Shown: positions 11,291-23,063 of the stretch, in pieces
Layout of the letters: each line of letters opens with the position of its first letter
Numbering within the stretch: the first letter of the stretch is position 1
Assembly (NCBI RefSeq): GCF_016446285.1
Contig: NZ_CP054140.1
Span: 1,221,501-1,285,500, forward strand
Direction of reading: 5' to 3'
Origin: Desulfobulbus oligotrophicus
Lineage (GTDB): Bacteria > Desulfobacterota > Desulfobulbia > Desulfobulbales > Desulfobulbaceae
Length of the DNA stretch: 64,000 nucleotides
The notes under the pieces: generated by a model
The model's database searches: none
What the model saw: the letters and a program-made list of their open reading frames with translations, nothing else
Told to the model about the DNA's origin: nothing
Made by a program: the position numbers and the translations under genes

Positions 11291-12430
11291 TAGTGTCCCG
11301 TGCGGTTAATAGAGTCTTTTAATATTTCTTGTGTTATAGTGCCGTATGGCACGCAAACACGAGAAATTTACGATAACAGACGAACAACGCCAAGACCTTG
11401 AGGCGTTGTTGCGCTCACCGAAAACAGCCCAAGATCTGGCATCTCGGGCCAAGATTATCCTCTTAACGGCATCAGGTAAAACTGCCGAGGATTTGATTGT
11501 CGAATTAGGGACAACTTTTCGCACAATCTATCGATGGAGGAAACGATTTAAAGAGTATGGCATCCACGGGCTTGTCGATCGTCCTCGTAGCGGCCAGCCA
11601 AAAAAACTGACCGATGCAACGGTCAAAGAAGTTTTGCGGATGACAGTTGAGTGCATTCCTCATGAGGCAACCCATTGGAGTGTTCGCCTTATGGCCAAAG
11701 CCGCCAAGGTCACCACGTGGCAGGTGCGACAGATATGGAATGCAGCCGATTTAAAACCGCATCGGCTTAAAAATTTCAAAATCAGCAATGATCCGAATTT
11801 TGCTGAGAAAGTAATCGATATTGTTGGCCTGTACATGAATCCACCTGAAAATGCGGCTGTGTTTTCCGTTGATGAGAAAACGCAGATTCAAGCGTTGGAT
11901 CGTACCCAGCCAATGTTGCCCATGCGGCCCGGCCAGATTGAGCGTCGCACGCATGATTACAAACGAAATGGCACCACCAATTTATACGCTGCCTTCGACA
12001 TTTTAACCGGACAAGTGCTTGGCCGAACAACCAAAAGGCATCGAGCCAAGGAGTTTCTCGACTTCTTGCGGCAGTTGAATAGGGCCGTTCCAGCCGAGGT
12101 TGCCCTCCATGTCATACTGGACAACAGCAGTACCCATAAAACGGCAGATGTGATGCAATGGCTCAAGGCCCACCCTCGGTTTACGTTCCATTTCACACCA
12201 ACCAGTGCATCATGGCTGAATGCGGTTGAAAGCTGGTTCGGCCAACTGGAGCGCAGAGCCATCCACCGAGGGGTGTTTACAAGTGTCAAAGATCTCAGAG
12301 ATGAAATCCACCGCTTCATCAAGCAGCACAATAACAGATCGGCCAAGCCATTCACATGGACAAAGACTGCAGCGGTGATACTTGAAAAGGTCTCAAAATT
12401 AAAAGACGACACTAACCGCACGGGACACTA
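11291..12430 (+). mobile_element. Intact IS630-family insertion sequence with TA duplication
   Basis: The element proper spans 11293-12428 (1136 bp) and is flanked by TA at 11291-11292 and 12429-12430, the target duplication expected for IS630/Tc1-mariner elements. The terminal inverted repeats are about 31 bp (11293-11323 and 12398-12428): the outer 16 bases GTGTCCCGTGCGGTTA are identical, then four or five mismatches, then ten identical bases (GTCTTTTAAT). It carries one transposase gene with no frameshift. The complete ends and open frame suggest a recent, possibly active copy. Confidence 0.92.
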
Positions 12431-12431
12431 G
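11346..12431 (+). CDS. IS630-family transposase
   Basis: 361 residues. N-terminal helix-turn-helix (LASRAKIILLTASGKTAEDL then FRTIYRWRKRF) recognises the ends. The DDE catalytic residues are in FSVDEK, VILDNSSTHK and NAVESWFGQ. The last residues (NRTGH) are encoded by the right inverted repeat. The stop codon TAG at 12429-12431 is made of the duplicated target TA plus the first flanking base, so it is supplied by the insertion site rather than the element. Confidence 0.93.
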   Translation: MARKHEKFTITDEQRQDLEALLRSPKTAQDLASRAKIILLTASGKTAEDLIVELGTTFRTIYRWRKRFKEYGIHGLVDRPRSGQPKKLTDATVKEVLRMTVECIPHEATHWSVRLMAKAAKVTTWQVRQIWNAADLKPHRLKNFKISNDPNFAEKVIDIVGLYMNPPENAAVFSVDEKTQIQALDRTQPMLPMRPGQIERRTHDYKRNGTTNLYAAFDILTGQVLGRTTKRHRAKEFLDFLRQLNRAVPAEVALHVILDNSSTHKTADVMQWLKAHPRFTFHFTPTSASWLNAVESWFGQLERRAIHRGVFTSVKDLRDEIHRFIKQHNNRSAKPFTWTKTAAVILEKVSKLKDDTNRTGH

Positions 12432-12522
12432 TCACTCAACGCTTTTTCATTTTTGCGTCATCAAATATTTTCTGTGCTTCTTCGAGAGTGATATAGCCAC
12501 TTCTCCAAAGCGTATCTATGGT

Positions 12523-14024
12523 ATTTAGTCGGCCATGAAAAACTCTCAACGAGTTGGAATATATGGATAAAAATTGAAAAATATAGCACTGTAAATTGCA
12601 GGATATTGCACTTTTCCCCTTCAATTTCTGGTGATTTTCGATGCAGCCGAAGAAGCAGATTTCCAGCCCCCAGTTGGACATGTTCCGCAACCGTTTGGAG
12701 AGCATTCTCAATCATCGTCATGAGTTGTACCGGCTGAGTGGGCTGATCGACTGGGGAGTGTTTGAAAGCGAGTTTGGCAAGCTGTACTCTGAGGAAGGCC
12801 GGCCGGGGCTCCCGATTCGTTTGCTCGTAGGCCTGACCTATCTGAGCCATGCGTTCAACACGTCAGACGAAGAGACGGTACGGCGGTGGGTGGAGAACCC
12901 GTACCATCAATATTTCTGCGGGGAAGAGTACTTTTGTCATGAACTGCCGATCGATCCGTCTTCGTTGAGTCGCTGGCGAAAGAGGATAGGTGAGCAGGGA
13001 TCGGAATTGATCCTGCAGCTCACGATAAAGGCGGGGTTGACAAGCGGAGCGGTTGCGCCGACCAGTTTGGAGCGAGTGATTGTTGATACGACTGTTCAGG
13101 AAAAGGCGGTGGCGTTTCCGACCGATTCACGATTGTACAACCGCAGTCGGGAACGACTGGTCAAGTTGGCTGCGGTTTGGGGCATTCGTCTTCGGCAGAG
13201 TTACTCCCGTCTTGGACGTCAGGCCTTGTTAAAGGCCGGCCGGTATTTTCACGCCCGCCAAACCCGAAGAGCCCGTCGGGAGGTAAAACGGCTGAAGACC
13301 TATCTGGGCAGGGTGTATCGGGACATTGTGCGCAAGATCGAAGGGCAGCAGGCGCTTGGCCCAGTGCTTCTTCCCGAGCTTGCCCTGGCTGAGCGGTTGT
13401 TGACGCAGCAGAAACAGGACAAGAACAAGCTCTACAGCCTGCATGCACCGGAAGTCGAATGCATTGCCAAGGGCAAGGCACACAAGAAGTACGAGTTCGG
13501 GGTCAAGGTGAGCGTGGCCACCACCAATCGAGACAACTTCGTGGTGGGCATGTTGGCTGAACCTGGCAATCCCTATGATGGCCACACCCTGGGCAGGGCC
13601 ATTGAGCAGGTGCAGCGGATCACCGGCTGCACCGTTCAACGCAGTTTTGTCGACCGGGGCTACCGTGGTCACAAGATCAAAGAACCCCAGGTGTTGATCT
13701 CCGGTCGCAGGCGGGGAATGACACCGCAGATGAAGAAGGAACTCAAGAGACGCAGCGCCGTTGAGCCGGTGATCGGCCATATGAAGGCGGATGGCAAGCT
13801 TGGACGCAATTACCTGCTGGGTGAGTTGGGCGATAAAATCAATGCCCTGCTCTGTGGAGCAGGGCACAATATCCGTCTTATCCTCAAGAAGTTGAGGGAA
13901 AGGTTGTTTCTTCTTTTTACCGGATTGCTTTTGGTCCTCTGGTGCCGCTTCGATGGGCAAAAAAAGGGTGCCGGAGCGATCGCCCCGGCAATATGAAAAA
14001 AGGCTTTTTCAAGGACGACTATTT
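12523..14024 (+). mobile_element. Intact IS5-family insertion sequence with ATTT duplication
   Basis: The element spans 12527-14020 (1494 bp), flanked by ATTT at 12523-12526 and 14021-14024. Imperfect inverted repeats AGTCGGCCATGAAAAA (left) and AGTCGTCCTTGAAAAA (right, reverse complement) match at 14 of 16 positions. It contains one intact transposase. It sits inside a leftward gene, and removing it with one ATTT restores that gene's frame, which fixes both boundaries. Confidence 0.92.
12641..13996 (+). CDS. IS5-family transposase
   Basis: 451 residues. The N-terminal DUF772-type region (GLPIRLLVGLTYLSHAF, DPSSLSRWRKR) precedes the DDE core: Asp in VIVDTTVQEKAV, Asp in SFVDRGYRGH and Glu in AVEPVIGHMKADG. 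It has full length and no internal stop, so it is likely functional. The start ATG 12641 has no strong ribosome site, which is common for transposases. The long reverse-strand open frame inside it (13229-13960) is a compositional shadow. Confidence 0.92.
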   Translation: MQPKKQISSPQLDMFRNRLESILNHRHELYRLSGLIDWGVFESEFGKLYSEEGRPGLPIRLLVGLTYLSHAFNTSDEETVRRWVENPYHQYFCGEEYFCHELPIDPSSLSRWRKRIGEQGSELILQLTIKAGLTSGAVAPTSLERVIVDTTVQEKAVAFPTDSRLYNRSRERLVKLAAVWGIRLRQSYSRLGRQALLKAGRYFHARQTRRARREVKRLKTYLGRVYRDIVRKIEGQQALGPVLLPELALAERLLTQQKQDKNKLYSLHAPEVECIAKGKAHKKYEFGVKVSVATTNRDNFVVGMLAEPGNPYDGHTLGRAIEQVQRITGCTVQRSFVDRGYRGHKIKEPQVLISGRRRGMTPQMKKELKRRSAVEPVIGHMKADGKLGRNYLLGELGDKINALLCGAGHNIRLILKKLRERLFLLFTGLLLVLWCRFDGQKKGAGAIAPAI

Positions 14025-15706: not shown

Positions 15707-15748
15707 TCATATTTCAATCTGTTTTTTCTAACTGTGAAAGAGGTTGCC

Positions 15749-18700
15749 ATGCCTGCCGGTCAATGTCCGATCCCATTGGCTTCTGATGCTCTCAAGGCTA
15801 ATTTGCTTGAGACCGCCACATCCGTTCAGATTCATCCCGAACTTCTTCTGCTGCGGGATGTTGTCTGCCGTTATCAGGGGCTGTTGAGTAAAATCGACAT
15901 GTTACTCTACGAAGTCAGCCATCCTTACCGCAATTGGAAGGTGATTGTTCCGGAATTGCGAGCCTATGTTCTGAAAAACCTGCACTATTACCGCGACCAT
16001 GATCAGGGGGCTGAGGCCTTTTCGTTGTTCATGTCGATCTTCTTCAATGCACTGCATGAATCCACCCGCAATGAACAGTTGCTCCGGCGTATTCTGGAAG
16101 CCATGCTGGCCTATGCCGACAAGCTGATCATGTCTTTGGACAGTTCGACGCTGTTTCGTTTTGCACCGGCCCTGGCGGATTTTTTTGCGCAACTCAACGA
16201 TCTTGATGCAACTGATCCCAAAGTGTTGCTGTTCATGGCCAAGGGGCATTATCCGGTGCAGAAAATGGCACAGCGTGTGCTGACGCTCCGGCAGCAACAG
16301 CTTGAACAGCCTTTTGATCTTCGTAGTCTGACTTTGCTGATGCGTACTCTTTTGGTGCGCAATTATGAGTACTGGCTGTCTGAAGCAGACCCGCTCCCCT
16401 GGTTTGAGCAGCAGTGCGGTGACTACTGCAGCCAGTGGCAGGGGCAGCACCTGCTTACGGCCATTTCTCATCAGCGGATCAACGAGTGCAAGCAGTCTCT
16501 TGAGGCCATTGATTTCACCGATGACTATCAACCGGCTCTGGAGCGTATTCTTGAGCTGCCGACCCACATGGATCTGGTCCGCCTGTACAAAGAGATCCCG
16601 ACCAAGATGGTTGCCGTGGAATCAGACAGTGAAGAGGCCGCCCATTTTGTTGAGAATCGCAAGCTGCTGTTTCTTTTCCGGATCATGGAAACCAGTGGTC
16701 TGTCATTGATCCATGAAGAGACCTTGCGGGAGATCAACCGTTCACTGGTGCAGCTGATCCGTAAGCAGCGCTTTGAGGAGATCGAACAGTTCTTTGTCAC
16801 CACCTTTCATCTGCTGAAGGCCAATGTCCGGGCGTATCCGCACACCTCCCTGCAGTGCATCCAGGTGATCGGCAACGAGGTGTTTAAGCGGGGTAACTCC
16901 CGATTAGTCGAGGCGTTTCTCTGGGAAACGGTTCGTTTTGGTTTTCAGTATGCCAATGTCCGTGGTGTGGACGAAGACTGGCAACCCATCGCCAACCCCG
17001 CCCATCTCACCAATATCCGGGTCTGGCTTACGTTGATCGGACAGGAGCCGAAATGGTGCTCCACCCTGTTTTCAGCACTGATTATCAATCTGCGTCTCTC
17101 AGGCACCTGTGTCCGTGATACCGATCTGTTCCAGCGGGATGTCACTGAACTGCTTAATCAGCCCATTGGACCGATTTATAATCTTGCCAAACAGTTTACA
17201 AAGTTAATGCCGGTCTTCTTTAATGAAATCGGTGCTGAGGGTGAATTGCGGGACGTTTCCACCGAGCTTGATGAGATTCACAAGCGAAAGGATGTGCTTA
17301 TCCATTTTTTACGCAAGCAGGCCCATGTCGAGTCCAGCAATCTGATTGTCGGTTTCATTGAGGGGATTTTCACCTTCTGGATCACCCTTGATCGATCATA
17401 CCTAAGTGACTACCTGCCGGAGGAGATTTTGCGTGAAATCGCCACCAGCGGGCCCTATGTTGATGACCAGCACGAACTGGCGGCACGCATCAAAAAGGAG
17501 CTGCGGTTCACCCGCATGGGCCAGATCCTGGCCTGGCCGGACGATGAACGAGAGGCCTTCCTTGCCCGGCAGACCGACCTTGCCGAGGTGGAGCGACAGC
17601 GATTTGCACTGCTGGTGCGGATGTATAAACTGTTGCACCTGAAGTACAATCTGAGCCTGCCTGAGATCCATAAACAGTTGCATCATGCCATAAACGGCGG
17701 GTTCCCCGAGTTAAGCCGGCTGCTTGACGTTCTGAAAAAAGACGACCCGATCCCCTGTCTTGAAGCATTGCTTGATGAGCTGGAGCATCTGCGCGAAATC
17801 ATTCTCAGTTCAGAGCATTTCGAGCCCAAGGAGGAGATCTACTACAAGCGGCACATTGCTGTTGATATCCCTTCGGTGTACGGTCGGTATTCTGAGCGCA
17901 AGTTTGATGCGCTTGGTCTAACCTTTCGCCTGGAGAGCCTGGCCAACATCTATCTGGAAAAGCTCTTTTCCACGGTTAACTTGAGTTTTATTACTCAGGC
18001 GACGTTTATCCATATCCTCAAATGCCTGCGTCTTTTTACCCGTGCTTTGCAGGTTGACGGTATCTTCAGTCGCCGTCTTGATACCTACATCAGTCTGCTG
18101 GCCGCTTCCATCGGAATCCGACGTTTTTCGTATACCCAGCATCTTGACATCATGCGCGGGCTCTCCGAAGGAGTGAAAGACATTATTTATGCCTATTACA
18201 CAAACATCCATCAGAACAATCTGTCCATCATTGTCCCTCAGATCGGGAAGGAGAACCTGCTTTCCAAATACCTCAACCTGTGGGACGATAAAAATCTTCC
18301 GGAAACCGTGCTCCGGGTTGCAGAGACCTTTTTTCGTGATCTGATTGCCACAACGTTCGGTTTGCAGCATCTGGACAACTTCATCGGCAAGGTGATCAAT
18401 ACCCTGGAGGCTCAGAAAGATATCCTGGATGAGAAGACGCTTGATCTGCTCATGACCTATAACCCGGAAAAGACGATCAGCAGCCTGCATTCCGAAAATC
18501 TGCGCACCCACAATCTGATTCATCTCGGGAACAAGGGGTTTAACCTGGCGGTGCTGACCAGGGACCGGCTGCCGATTCCACCGGCCTTTATCATTACCAC
18601 AGAAGTGTTTCGCTGTTATCCGGCTATTCGAAAATTTGAACGAGCCCGGGACGAGTACATGCAGCGGGTACGAACCTCGGTCACTGAATTGGAGCAGCTG

Positions 18701-20008
18701 ACCGGTCTGATCTTCGGTTCGCCGGAACGACCTCTTTTGGTATCCGTGCGCAGCGGTTCAGCCATCTCCATGCCGGGCATCATGTCCACCATCCACAACG
18801 TCGGTACCAATGAGGAGCTGGTGGAGGAGTTTGTTACCCTGTATCCGGAGAAAAAGTATTTTGCCTGGGATAACTTTCGACGGTTTCAGCAGTCCTGGGG
18901 TATGGGCCATGGCATGGATCGTGAAGACTTTCAGGAGTTGATGAACACCCACAAGCAACAGCACCGGATTCAGTACAAACGTGATTTTTCCTCTGAACAG
19001 ATGAAACTGCTGGCCCTGGACTATCAGCAGATCGTCAAGGGCCGAGGGTTTACCGTACCTGAGGATCCGTGGTTGCAACTGATCGGTGCGGTTGATGCGG
19101 TTTTTGATTCCTGGCACACGCAAAAGGCTCAGGAGTATCGGCACCTGATGGGGGTTTCCGATGATTGGGGCACTGCGGTTATTGTCCAGACAATGGTGTT
19201 TGGCAATCTGGATCGCTCCGCCGGCAGCGGTGTACTGTTCACTGCCCACCCCTACCGTAAGGTGCGTCGAGTCGCCCTGTGGGGTGATTATACCATCGGT
19301 GATCAGGGGGAAGATATTGTCTCCGGTCTGGTCACCAGTTACCCGATCTCTGTTGAACAGGCGGAGCTTGACGGCCGTGATGAAAACAAGAGTCTGGAGA
19401 GACTCTACCCGAAGATCTATGAGCGGCTGCTCTCCATCAGCCGTGATCTGGTTTATGAAAAAGAGTGGAATCCCCAGGAGATCGAGTTTACCTTCGAGGG
19501 ACCGGAGCCGGAGCAGTTATATATTCTGCAGACCCGGGACATGATTACCATTAAAAAGAAGGAACATCTCAACGTGTTTGTTGATTCTGATCTGGCCCAT
19601 AAGTCGATCCTGGCCAAGGGCATCGGGGTTTCCGGTTCGGCAATGTCCGGTAAGGCCGTGTTCAGCGAGGAGAATATCATCAGCCTTCGCCGCAGAGAAC
19701 CGGATACGCCGTTGATTCTTATCCGCCGTGACACCGTGCCGGAGGATATTCGGGAGATATCCATGGCTGACGGGGTGGTGACCTCGCGCGGCGGCCAGAC
19801 TTCTCATGCCTCGGTAGTCGCCACCCGTCTGGAAAAGACCTGTGTGGTCGGTTGCCGTGACATGCAGGTCTATGAAAATGAGGAGTATGCAGAGATCAAT
19901 GGTTTCCGAATTAACTTCGGTGCGCCGATAGCCATAGATGGACGTCACGGCCTTTTGATTGAAGGGAACTACCCGCTGCAGGAAGAGGTGCATATCCTGC
20001 CTCTGTAA
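15749..20008 (+). CDS. Large PPDK-like dikinase/phosphotransferase without TIM barrel
   Basis: 1419 residues from ATG 15749 (AGAGG five bases upstream; the frame extends to 15734). The first ~920 residues are helical and not a family I recognise. An ATP-binding domain of pyruvate phosphate dikinase type follows: GNKGFNLAVL, LLVSVRSGSAISMPGIM, QAMVFGN-like QTMVFGNLDRSAGSGV, GDQGEDIVSG, IEFTFEGPEPEQLYILQTRD. The phosphohistidine domain has VTSRGGQTSHASVVATRLEK with the catalytic His. The PEP/pyruvate TIM barrel is absent and the protein ends about 60 residues after the His motif. It should form phospho-His from ATP and pass the phosphate to an unknown acceptor, as glucan water dikinase and rifampin phosphotransferase do with other architectures. 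Confidence 0.8.
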   Translation: MPAGQCPIPLASDALKANLLETATSVQIHPELLLLRDVVCRYQGLLSKIDMLLYEVSHPYRNWKVIVPELRAYVLKNLHYYRDHDQGAEAFSLFMSIFFNALHESTRNEQLLRRILEAMLAYADKLIMSLDSSTLFRFAPALADFFAQLNDLDATDPKVLLFMAKGHYPVQKMAQRVLTLRQQQLEQPFDLRSLTLLMRTLLVRNYEYWLSEADPLPWFEQQCGDYCSQWQGQHLLTAISHQRINECKQSLEAIDFTDDYQPALERILELPTHMDLVRLYKEIPTKMVAVESDSEEAAHFVENRKLLFLFRIMETSGLSLIHEETLREINRSLVQLIRKQRFEEIEQFFVTTFHLLKANVRAYPHTSLQCIQVIGNEVFKRGNSRLVEAFLWETVRFGFQYANVRGVDEDWQPIANPAHLTNIRVWLTLIGQEPKWCSTLFSALIINLRLSGTCVRDTDLFQRDVTELLNQPIGPIYNLAKQFTKLMPVFFNEIGAEGELRDVSTELDEIHKRKDVLIHFLRKQAHVESSNLIVGFIEGIFTFWITLDRSYLSDYLPEEILREIATSGPYVDDQHELAARIKKELRFTRMGQILAWPDDEREAFLARQTDLAEVERQRFALLVRMYKLLHLKYNLSLPEIHKQLHHAINGGFPELSRLLDVLKKDDPIPCLEALLDELEHLREIILSSEHFEPKEEIYYKRHIAVDIPSVYGRYSERKFDALGLTFRLESLANIYLEKLFSTVNLSFITQATFIHILKCLRLFTRALQVDGIFSRRLDTYISLLAASIGIRRFSYTQHLDIMRGLSEGVKDIIYAYYTNIHQNNLSIIVPQIGKENLLSKYLNLWDDKNLPETVLRVAETFFRDLIATTFGLQHLDNFIGKVINTLEAQKDILDEKTLDLLMTYNPEKTISSLHSENLRTHNLIHLGNKGFNLAVLTRDRLPIPPAFIITTEVFRCYPAIRKFERARDEYMQRVRTSVTELEQLTGLIFGSPERPLLVSVRSGSAISMPGIMSTIHNVGTNEELVEEFVTLYPEKKYFAWDNFRRFQQSWGMGHGMDREDFQELMNTHKQQHRIQYKRDFSSEQMKLLALDYQQIVKGRGFTVPEDPWLQLIGAVDAVFDSWHTQKAQEYRHLMGVSDDWGTAVIVQTMVFGNLDRSAGSGVLFTAHPYRKVRRVALWGDYTIGDQGEDIVSGLVTSYPISVEQAELDGRDENKSLERLYPKIYERLLSISRDLVYEKEWNPQEIEFTFEGPEPEQLYILQTRDMITIKKKEHLNVFVDSDLAHKSILAKGIGVSGSAMSGKAVFSEENIISLRRREPDTPLILIRRDTVPEDIREISMADGVVTSRGGQTSHASVVATRLEKTCVVGCRDMQVYENEEYAEINGFRINFGAPIAIDGRHGLLIEGNYPLQEEVHILPL

Positions 20009-20096: not shown

Positions 20097-23063
20097 ATGA
20101 GCATATCAGATCCTTCTGCGGTTCCTTCCACCTCTCCTGTCTTCTGTTTGTCGGTTGAGGGTATGACCTGTGAACACTGTCAAACAAGGGTCGAGCAGGC
20201 TGCACTTGGAGTGGACGGAGTGGTGGAGGCCGGGGTCGATCTTGCCGCCGGCACACTCAGTGTCCGCGGCGGTGACCCGCAGGCGGTTATCCATGCCTTA
20301 GCTGAGGCCGGCTATCCGGCAAAAGAAAACAAAACATGTCTGCCGACTCCACCTCCGTTGCCTGTGCACCAGAAAGCTGCAGCAGCAGAGGTTGCCGTGC
20401 CGGTCCGCCCCTATTTGCTCCGGATTGATGAGATGCACTGCGCCAGCTGCGTGGGCCGGGTTGAGCAGGCCATTCTGGCTGTGCCCGGAGTTCAGGCCGC
20501 AGCGGTTAACCTGATCGAGAAAAGTGCGGCTGTCGAAGGTGGTGATCCTGCACAGGTAATAGAGGTGCTGGATCAGGCAGGGTATCCTGCTGCACTTGTC
20601 AAAGAGCCGCAACTCAGCCGGGAAGACGGCTATGAGATAGATATTCTCGGGATGCATTGCGCCAGCTGTGTAAGCCGGGTTGAGCAGGCTTTGCTGAAGG
20701 TCCCCGGGGTAACTGATGTTTCGGTCAACCTTATTGAGAAAAAAGCTTTGATCCGGGGTGGTCAGCCCAGTCAGGCTGTGCAGGCGGTTGTTGATCAGGG
20801 GTATGGTGCATCCTTGCGGGTGCGGTCAACGAACGACTCGTTTGTGATCCGAGTACATACACAGCCTGAACCCGGGAATCTGGAACAGATCCGTGAGATT
20901 CTCCTTGCTCAGGATCCGAATGCCGATATGACGGTTGAAGATCAGCTCTTGAAGATTACCACCAGTCAGCATCCGGCTGACATCCTGTTGCGCATAGCTG
21001 ATATCGGTCTTGAGGTGAGTTTAGAGGAAACCTTTGTTGATCCGAGCCTGCAGCAGGCTGAAGAAACCCGACAGGAAATACGCCTTGCCTGGCGCAGGGC
21101 CATTCTGGCGGGCGTGGTGGGCACTGCTGTCATGGTTGGGCATATGTCCGGGTTGTTTCCGCATCCGGAAGATGGACAGTTGTTCTGGGCAGGCGCCGCG
21201 TTGCTCTGTCTTCTGACCATGATGTACAGCGGCCGTAATTATTTTATTGGTGCCTGGAAACAGGCGAAGCATGGTGCTGCCAATATGGATACCCTGGTGG
21301 CCCTGGGTACAGGAGCTGCCTGGGTTTCCTCCCTGGTGGTTATTGTTGATCCAGAGTTTATTCCCGGTGCCGGAGACAATCTTTTTCTTGATGCATCGGT
21401 GATGATTCTTGCCTTTTTGCAGTTGGGACGGGCCCTTGAAACAAGGGCCAAGCGAACAACGAGTGAGGCAATCGGTGCGTTGGTCGGTCTCAGGGCACGG
21501 ACAGCCCTGGTTGTGCGCACAGCCGGTCAGGTGGAGATACCTGTGTCGCTGTTGCGCATCGGTGACCGCTTACGTGTTAAACCAGGGGAGAAAGTACCTA
21601 TTGATGGCGAGATTATTGACGGTCGAACCACCATTGATGAGTCCATGCTCACCGGCGAACCCTTGGCTGTGTCCCGGGCTGTTGGCGACACTGTAACAGG
21701 CGGCACGATCAATCGATCCGGCTCTTTTATTTTAGAGGTGACCCGGTTGGGTGAGGATACCACCCTGGCCCGTATCATCCGTATGGTTAAAACAGCCCAG
21801 ATGAGCAAACCGCCCATCGGTCGACTGGTGGATCGTATTGCCGGGATCTTTGTGCCGATAGTCATAACCATCAGCCTGATCACCCTGCTGGCGTGGTTGG
21901 GTCTTGCCTCGGATCTGCCGCTGGCACACGGGATCACCGCGGCCATTGCCGTTCTTGTCATTGCCTGCCCCTGCGCCCTTGGTCTGGCAACACCGATAGC
22001 CATCATGGTCGGCACCAGCCGGGCTGCGCAGTCTAATGTCCTGATCCGCAACAGTGATGCTCTGCAGACCGCGGCAGCCCTGACGCATGTGGTGGTGGAC
22101 AAGACCGGCACCCTGACCGAGGGTCGTCCGGCTGTCACCAGTGTCTATCCGGGTGCAGGATATACCGAGCGAGAGGTCCTGCTTTGGGCGGCGAGCCTGG
22201 AGGTCGGTTCTGAGCACCCGCTTGCTGAGGCGGTGTTGACTGCCCAGTCAGAACAAGGAGGTGCCTTGGCTCAGGTCGATGCATTTAAAGCTGTCACCGG
22301 CAGGGGTGTGAGTGCCGAACACAACGACGTCACCTACCTCTTGGGCAGTTATAAGTTTCTTAAGGAAGAGGGGGTTGTCCTGCCGGCGGATTTGCTTGAC
22401 AGGGCCAGGCACGAAGCCGACCAGGGAGGGACGCCGATCTGGCTGGGAAAAGGTGTGGAGGTCATGGGACTTCTTATCCTTAAAGATCCGCTGCGGCAGG
22501 ACTCTGCGGCTTCGATTAAACGGTTGCAGAGCATGGGGATCGAGGTTGTGATGTGCAGCGGTGACAACCGGGCAACCGCCGAGGCTGTGGCAAAGGAGGT
22601 CGGAATCAGCCAGGTGCACAGTGAAATTCTGCCTGAGGAAAAATTACAGGTCATTCGTACACTGCAGGAACAAGGTGGAAAGGTCGGTATGGTCGGTGAC
22701 GGTGTGAATGACGCTCCGGCTCTGGCCCAGGCTGACACGGGTTTTGCCATTGGCAGCGGCACAGATGTGGCTATTGAGAATGCAGACATCACCCTTGCCG
22801 GTGATTCACTCTTGCTGGTGGCTGACGCCATCACTATTTCAGAGGCCACTCTGCGCAATATTAAACAGAACCTGTTTGGAGCCTTTATCTACAATGTAAT
22901 TGGTATTCCCCTGGCAGCCGGTGTCTTTTATCCCTTTACCGGATGGTTGCTTGATCCGATGTTCGCCAGTGCGGCCATGGCACTTTCTTCGGTAACCGTG
23001 GTCACGAACGCCAATCGGCTACGATTTTTTCAACCCAGGGGCGAGGCAGGTGTAACGAGCTGA
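20097..23063 (+). CDS. copA: Copper-translocating P1B-type ATPase with multiple HMA domains
   Basis: 988 residues. Three N-terminal metal-binding domains have CxxC at residues 25-28, 115-118 and 188-191. A fourth segment around 243-310 has the same size and pattern but no CxxC. Eight membrane segments follow, with CPC in the ion-binding helix (IACPCALGLATP), the phosphorylation site DKTGTLT, TGE in MLTGEP, the HP locus GSEHPLAEAV and GDGVNDAPAL. CPC plus the terminal helix pattern supports Cu(I) export. ATG 20097 is preceded by GAGGAG. No copper-sensing regulator is adjacent; a hairpin terminator follows. Confidence 0.93.
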   Translation: MSISDPSAVPSTSPVFCLSVEGMTCEHCQTRVEQAALGVDGVVEAGVDLAAGTLSVRGGDPQAVIHALAEAGYPAKENKTCLPTPPPLPVHQKAAAAEVAVPVRPYLLRIDEMHCASCVGRVEQAILAVPGVQAAAVNLIEKSAAVEGGDPAQVIEVLDQAGYPAALVKEPQLSREDGYEIDILGMHCASCVSRVEQALLKVPGVTDVSVNLIEKKALIRGGQPSQAVQAVVDQGYGASLRVRSTNDSFVIRVHTQPEPGNLEQIREILLAQDPNADMTVEDQLLKITTSQHPADILLRIADIGLEVSLEETFVDPSLQQAEETRQEIRLAWRRAILAGVVGTAVMVGHMSGLFPHPEDGQLFWAGAALLCLLTMMYSGRNYFIGAWKQAKHGAANMDTLVALGTGAAWVSSLVVIVDPEFIPGAGDNLFLDASVMILAFLQLGRALETRAKRTTSEAIGALVGLRARTALVVRTAGQVEIPVSLLRIGDRLRVKPGEKVPIDGEIIDGRTTIDESMLTGEPLAVSRAVGDTVTGGTINRSGSFILEVTRLGEDTTLARIIRMVKTAQMSKPPIGRLVDRIAGIFVPIVITISLITLLAWLGLASDLPLAHGITAAIAVLVIACPCALGLATPIAIMVGTSRAAQSNVLIRNSDALQTAAALTHVVVDKTGTLTEGRPAVTSVYPGAGYTEREVLLWAASLEVGSEHPLAEAVLTAQSEQGGALAQVDAFKAVTGRGVSAEHNDVTYLLGSYKFLKEEGVVLPADLLDRARHEADQGGTPIWLGKGVEVMGLLILKDPLRQDSAASIKRLQSMGIEVVMCSGDNRATAEAVAKEVGISQVHSEILPEEKLQVIRTLQEQGGKVGMVGDGVNDAPALAQADTGFAIGSGTDVAIENADITLAGDSLLLVADAITISEATLRNIKQNLFGAFIYNVIGIPLAAGVFYPFTGWLLDPMFASAAMALSSVTVVTNANRLRFFQPRGEAGVTS

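Follow-up and report, generated by a model that had tools for sequence, protein, structure and literature searches.

What does a protein do that has kept the ATP-binding and phosphohistidine domains of pyruvate phosphate dikinase (PPDK) but lacks the barrel that handles phosphoenolpyruvate (PEP) and pyruvate? This question is raised by a gene, here called T, in a 64,000-nucleotide stretch of the Desulfobulbus oligotrophicus chromosome (RefSeq assembly GCF_016446285.1, contig NZ_CP054140.1, positions 1,221,501 to 1,285,500; "the window" in the following). T encodes a solenoid-PPDK dikinase-like protein and occurs together with gap2, the gene of a second glyceraldehyde-3-phosphate dehydrogenase (GAPDH). 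We are firmly convinced that T is not a PPDK and that it makes up a single functional unit with Gap2. Judged from the sequences, T is on balance probably a PPDK-derived dikinase, in which an N-terminal solenoid acceptor domain has replaced the barrel and which has Gap2 as its obligate partner in the gluconeogenic triose-phosphate segment.

A PPDK-type module behind a predicted alpha-solenoid

T is neither a chance open reading frame (ORF) nor an assembly artefact, as full-length homologues (38-84% identity) share its architecture and its end point. An in-frame GTG is also present at position 15734, upstream of the ATG, and the homologues start at or just after the ATG. There is essentially one copy per genome, even in genomes of 1.6-1.8 Mb, and the solenoid is fused to the PPDK module in all full-length homologues.

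Residues 920-1412 of T align with residues 14-514 of the C. symbiosum PPDK (phmmer against the PDB). This match ends at the junction between phosphohistidine domain and barrel, and the TIM barrel is therefore missing; the PEP-utilizers_C domain (PF02896) was found neither by Pfam, nor in the PPDK alignment, nor by fold search. The only Pfam matches are PPDK_N (residues 926-1208) and PEP-utilizers (PF00391, the phosphohistidine domain, residues 1321-1387), and in nearly all homologues about 64-74 residues follow H1353. The residues K929, R1001, R1045, E1246, Q1261, R1263 and H1353 do not vary in any of the 113 full-length homologues. They correspond to K22, R92, R135, E323, Q335, R337 and H455 of PPDK, which we take, along with D321, to be the functional residues of that enzyme; the position of D321 is occupied by Glu in 110 of the 113. 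Thus T possesses the catalytic residues of the PPDK ATP-grasp and the GG-x-TSH phosphohistidine domain, but it scores only 351.6 bits against the PPDK family TIGR01828 (curated cut-off 843.45). Since it reaches no more than 85-92 bits against the PEP synthase families, a PPDK-type rather than a PEP synthase-type ATP-grasp is favoured. The match to the rifampin phosphotransferase (RPH) family NF041857 is confined to the ATP-grasp (34 versus 999 bits).

The 915 residues in front of this module have no family in Pfam, NCBIfam, PHROG or PADLOC and no sequence relative in the PDB, either with the single sequence or with a 73-sequence profile as query. AlphaFold models this part as a helical solenoid (pLDDT 79, pTM 0.62), in which two short strands are the only non-helical parts. 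With this model, no PDB fold passed E ≤ 1e-3 in Foldseek; generic importin- and HEAT-like solenoids appeared only at E > 1e-3 with TM-scores of about 0.1-0.17 and are not meaningful relatives. A model of residues 300-1419 matched PPDK, PEP synthase, RPH and the mobile domain of pyruvate kinase over its C-terminal half and gave no fold match over the solenoid part. The initial annotation, made from the DNA alone, had described complete ATP-binding and phosphohistidine motifs, a missing PEP/pyruvate barrel and about 900 unrecognised helical residues in front, and all three hold. It had also proposed a structure prediction and fold search of residues 1-920, and neither sequence nor fold searches revealed the known regulatory or PEP-binding domain that would have contradicted it.

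The N-terminal part is strongly conserved. Across the 113 homologues it contains about 50 near-invariant polar residues, many of them charged, and for this reason the solenoid is probably the acceptor domain. The most conserved of these residues are grouped in blocks, as expected of a binding site. Two blocks (residues 411-544 and 695-737) are conserved as strongly as the catalytic module or above it; the first includes W411, N416, H419, DTDLFQ (457-462), NEIGAEGELR (492-501), T505, D508-E509, R513, D515 and LRKQxHVES (521-529). Nine residues (D457, D459, R501, E509, R522, H526, K632, Y714 and E716) are retained even in two paralogues with only 24% identity, where the alignment is weaker.

Co-occurrence of T with a second GAPDH

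We searched for T and Gap2 in the same 395 genomes spread over the phylum Desulfobacterota. T is present in 117 of them (approximately 30%), two of which carry only remote, 24% identical forms. It was found in all 41 good-quality close relatives and in nearly all Desulfobulbales; among Desulfobulbales-type records, at least 80 named ones carry it (56-84% identity). Both genes occur together in 114 genomes and neither in 276, so that only five are discordant. T without gap2 was found in one incomplete metagenome-assembled genome (MAG; G165, 76% complete) and in two genomes with the remote paralogue only (G357 and G429); among the 116 gap2 carriers, the two that lack T are likewise incomplete MAGs, 79% (G060) and 62% (G131) complete. 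The scores of the Gap2 search are bimodal, with full-length Gap2 at 433 bits or more and ordinary GapA at 160 bits or less. Fisher's test for the pairing gives p = 3e-93 but ignores shared ancestry, and families with mixed states are therefore useful controls: gap2 is present in 5/5 genomes with T versus 0/4 without T in family f63, in 3/3 versus 0/2 in f47 and in 8/8 versus 0/5 in f68. The pairing also persists where the genes are unlinked, as in other Desulfobulbales and in D. oligotrophicus itself, which has both members of the pair (T at C1:1237249-1241505, gap2 at C1:311526-312743). Moreover, the distances between T proteins follow those between Gap2 proteins when phosphoglycerate kinase (PGK) is controlled for (partial r 0.69, 19 taxa), compared with a partial r of 0.42 (19 taxa) for T and PGK with Gap2 controlled. 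Our searches of the open-access literature found no description of this pair; the link is a new finding of this analysis.

The second GAPDH gene is longer than gapA. Its product of about 410-440 amino acids contains approximately 80 extra residues, in insertions that are absent from GapA, and retains SCTTTC, TvHAaT, DLRknR, TTGAA, SvRiPT and YDNE. These motifs hold the Cys, His, Arg and Thr used in catalysis and the residues with which a phosphorylating GAPDH binds phosphate. By the rules of cofactor selection in GAPDHs, Gap2 is predicted to use NADP(H), because an N-x-G-R motif stands in its Rossmann fold where the NAD-selecting Asp32 would be. Compared with type I GAPDH (TIGR01534), Gap2 has retained the YDNE motif and those of the catalytic Cys, His, Thr and Arg, but it differs in the extra residues and in the replaced Asp32 and stays below the equivalog cut-off (332 versus 367 bits). 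In the complete genomes G082 and G118, Gap2 is the sole GAPDH and must therefore carry the GAPDH step. A small-genome relative has a GapA with a diverged active-site segment, SASSCISN (L173:11085-12086, minus strand), which suggests that GapA is decaying where Gap2 and T persist.

Some further observations concern the distribution of T. A phage or plasmid origin was rejected, since nothing in plasmids or viral contigs matched the N-terminal part and the phage matches were confined to the PPDK part; a role in anti-phage defence was dismissed for lack of a PADLOC match. The remote paralogues belong to family f70 (L180:6873-11330 and L181:4734-9365) and occur without gap2. Each is followed by a gene for a GAF and sigma54-activator protein and has GGRGAHAA as its phosphohistidine motif; these paralogues may phosphorylate something else or act in signalling. 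The remote paralogue was not found among 297 genomes searched, in which its two known carriers gave no match either and were presumably not included.

Possible functions of the T-Gap2 pair

Its tight coupling to a GAPDH paralogue, together with the gap-pgk-tpi and carbon monoxide dehydrogenase/acetyl-CoA synthase (CODH/ACS) operons described below, places T in triose-phosphate and gluconeogenic metabolism. The complete PPDK-type site suggests that ATP, probably with phosphate (Pi), would phosphorylate H1353, yielding AMP and pyrophosphate (PPi). The swivelling domain would then take the phosphoryl group to a pocket of the solenoid, for which the nine residues retained in the remote paralogues are the proposed lining, and, as the co-occurrence suggests, it would be passed there to an acceptor through which the Gap2 substrate is produced or controlled. 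The leading candidate is 3-phosphoglycerate, which would be converted to 1,3-bisphosphoglycerate and then reduced by Gap2 with NADPH. This acceptor is attractive because GAPDH reduces an acyl phosphate and because the cleavage of ATP to AMP would give gluconeogenesis a forward push in anaerobes with little energy to spare, as PpsA does at the pyruvate step. T might thus be an ATP:3-phosphoglycerate (phosphate) dikinase that feeds an NADPH-dependent Gap2, as a one-way gluconeogenic alternative to PGK and GAPDH. However, PGK is present in 25 of 25 T-carrying genomes tested. The pathway therefore does not need another way of making 1,3-bisphosphoglycerate from 3-phosphoglycerate, T does not stand in for a missing PGK, and we consider this particular reaction rather unlikely. 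The suggestion in the initial annotation that T phosphorylates another acceptor, by analogy with RPH and glucan water dikinase, gains indirect support from the invariant ATP-grasp and His residues and from the absence of the barrel in all 113 homologues; the acceptor is no longer a free guess, given the links to Gap2 and to the operons.

Besides the general presence of PGK, several points weigh against a dikinase with a solenoid acceptor domain and an obligate Gap2 partner. The co-occurrence counts lack phylogenetic independence. The remote paralogues carry the core residues yet have no gap2. In the complete genome G118 (family f42), T is broken into two frames of 652 and 809 amino acids (C1:682947-685599) while gap2 is intact; this interruption reflects a sequencing frameshift or else a natural loss. 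Proteins are the usual ligands of alpha-solenoids, and this would favour a protein as acceptor. In addition, the pLDDT falls below 50 in the conserved loops 402-415, 491-496, 527-530 and 697-712, although low confidence of this kind can be compatible with mobile active-site loops.

The main rival takes up the protein-binding character of the solenoid. T might be a protein phosphotransferase or regulator that docks Gap2 with its solenoid, perhaps via the approximately 80 extra residues, and phosphorylates it through the phosphohistidine domain, so that ATP, AMP, PPi and Pi would determine how active Gap2 is or in which direction it works. The one-to-one pairing specific to Gap2, unlinked cases included, the correlation of T and Gap2 distances and the insertions that GapA lacks would all fit. 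On the other hand, dozens of Asp, Glu, Arg, Lys and His residues that are invariant over 34-84% identity resemble an active site rather than a docking surface, and the core residues are retained in paralogues without gap2. We regard regulation of Gap2 by phosphorylation as possible, but not as the probable answer.

It is somewhat less probable, and in our view unlikely, that T acts on another small molecule, such as glycerate, glyceraldehyde, dihydroxyacetone, a hexose phosphate or a glucan, and that Gap2 merely works downstream without contact. Such a role would suit the glgA, gapA, pgk and tpiA genes in the neighbourhood, and other small-molecule dikinases share the ATP-grasp and swivelling modules and vary in the acceptor domain (PMC12167813). 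However, a generic triose or hexose kinase would not account for the fact that T is never found without Gap2, Pfam detected no carbohydrate-binding module in T, and phosphofructokinase is present in T-carrying genomes, so that T is not a substitute for it.

PPDK-type chemistry is reversible, and PPi and AMP are products of sulfate activation. T could therefore be imagined to recycle both compounds in sulfate reducers by the reverse reaction, but aprA is absent in 12 of 50 T-carrying genomes tested (families f44, f68, f25 and f117 and genome G256) and many genomes with aprA have no T, which makes this highly improbable. Least credible of all is a split PPDK or PEP synthase with T as one of its halves, as the exact match of T to PPDK up to residue 514 might suggest, since the only PEP-utilizers_C barrel of the genome lies within a complete 816-residue PpsA-like protein, which has ATP-grasp and phosphohistidine regions of its own, and the solenoid is fused to T in every full-length homologue. 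T as an ATP-driven enzyme I of a nearby phosphotransferase system (PTS), whose rpoN-hpf-ptsN-rapZ-EIIA-Man genes are often found in the locus, was rejected: the neighbouring ORFs scanned contain no HPr motif, T has no PEP barrel, and two loci (L173 and L176) retain T and gap2 without ptsN.

Central carbon metabolism is usually assumed to be fully listed. T, a single-copy gene retained even in small genomes and accompanied throughout by one GAPDH isoform, suggests that a reaction or a control step is still missing from the synthesis of sugars from small carbon compounds in many anaerobes. A 3-phosphoglycerate dikinase route, if true, would extend through about one third of the Desulfobacterota. 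T is also easily annotated as PPDK, and metabolic models that count it as such would be wrong. The pairing reduces the question to two proteins and is directly testable; G118, with its interrupted T and Gap2 as sole GAPDH, is a useful natural test.

Gene neighbourhood and comparison with known systems

In distant relatives, T lies between gapA and gap2 in the order rpoN-hpf-ptsN-rapZ-EIIA-GNAT-gapA-T-gap2-pgk-tpiA-secG, and in some genomes the spacing between T and gap2 shrinks so far that the two overlap by 4 or 38 bp. In other families, T and gap2 come last in a CODH/ACS operon (CODH catalytic subunit, ACS alpha/beta, gamma, methyltransferase), with T after an AcsV-like gene in one case (L166). 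The CODH/ACS cluster 01636-01643 of Desulfococcus biacutus has the same gene order, with genes named 'PEP synthase/PPDK' and 'dehydrogenase' (PMC4103992); from this order, we infer that they are T and gap2. In Desulfobulbales, the locus is split into glgA-gapA-T and gap2-GNAT-pgk-tpiA-secG. The RimI-like GNAT acetyltransferase gene, which recurs before gapA and lies between gap2 and pgk in Desulfobulbales (L142-L179, L182-L191), travels with the GAPDH genes.

In D. oligotrophicus, T is apart from both the gapA and the gap2 locus. The two unlike transposase genes upstream of it (Table 1) are consistent with a relocation of T from the glgA-gapA locus (C1, around 1462 kb). The adjoining gene for a coiled-coil protein is not a conserved neighbour of T elsewhere, and the copper-type P-ATPase gene directly downstream adjoins T in some Desulfobulbales only.

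Table 1. Features of T and adjoining genes (positions in the window)
Feature	Position	Strand	Basis
T (solenoid-PPDK dikinase-like protein), 1419 aa	15749..20008	+	open ORF, domain search, homologues
Likely ribosome-binding site AAAGAGG, ahead of ATG 15749	15737..15743	+	sequence read
Alpha-solenoid domain without recognised family, proposed acceptor domain, residues 1-915	15749..18493	+	AlphaFold, no family or PDB match
Most conserved block, residues 411-544	16979..17380	+	invariant or nearly so, 113 homologues
Second conserved block, residues 695-737 (KRHIAxDIPSxYGxYxExKFDAL)	17831..17959	+	homologue alignment
PPDK-type ATP-grasp, residues 926-1264 (K929, R1001, R1045, T1165, E1246, Q1261, R1263)	18524..19540	+	
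Phosphohistidine swivelling domain, residues 1290-1412, final domain	19616..19984	+	
H1353 in GGQTSHAS, predicted phosphorylated histidine	19805..19807	+	invariant in 113/113 homologues
Two transposase genes, DDE_3/IS630-like and DUF772/DDE_Tnp_1	11346-13996		
Coiled-coil, possibly TPR-like protein, 308 aa	14009-14935	-	no Pfam match
Copper-type P-ATPase, three HMA domains	20097-23063	+	

Among known enzymes, PPDK (TIGR01828; PDB 1KBL) shares with T the ATP-grasp and phosphohistidine domains, their order and their catalytic residues (approximately 31% identity in the structure alignment of this part), but T has no PEP/pyruvate barrel and carries the 915-residue solenoid instead. Barrel-less PPDK-like proteins (NF004531/PRK05878 and the phage proteins of PHROG 18609) score well over the same region; unlike T, they have no solenoid and no known link to a GAPDH. 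Glucan water dikinase and phosphoglucan water dikinase also have a large N-terminal part ahead of a PPDK-like module, with a domain order that differs from that of T, in which Pfam (E ≤ 1) detected no CBM45 or CBM20 starch- or glycogen-binding module.

RPH and the two-component dikinases PpsAB, CreHI and HpeHI combine an ATP-grasp, a swivelling His domain and a separate acceptor-binding domain and convert ATP to AMP (PMC12167813). T appears to follow the same logic with its proposed acceptor domain, although an RPH-like drug or phenol acceptor domain was detected neither with NCBIfam nor in the PDB fold search with residues 1-920 (E ≤ 1e-3). It differs from the RPH-type dikinases in that the putative acceptor domain comes first, in its PPDK-type ATP-grasp and in its likely place in central instead of peripheral metabolism. 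T would thus add an alpha-solenoid without known family as another kind of acceptor domain to the dikinase module.

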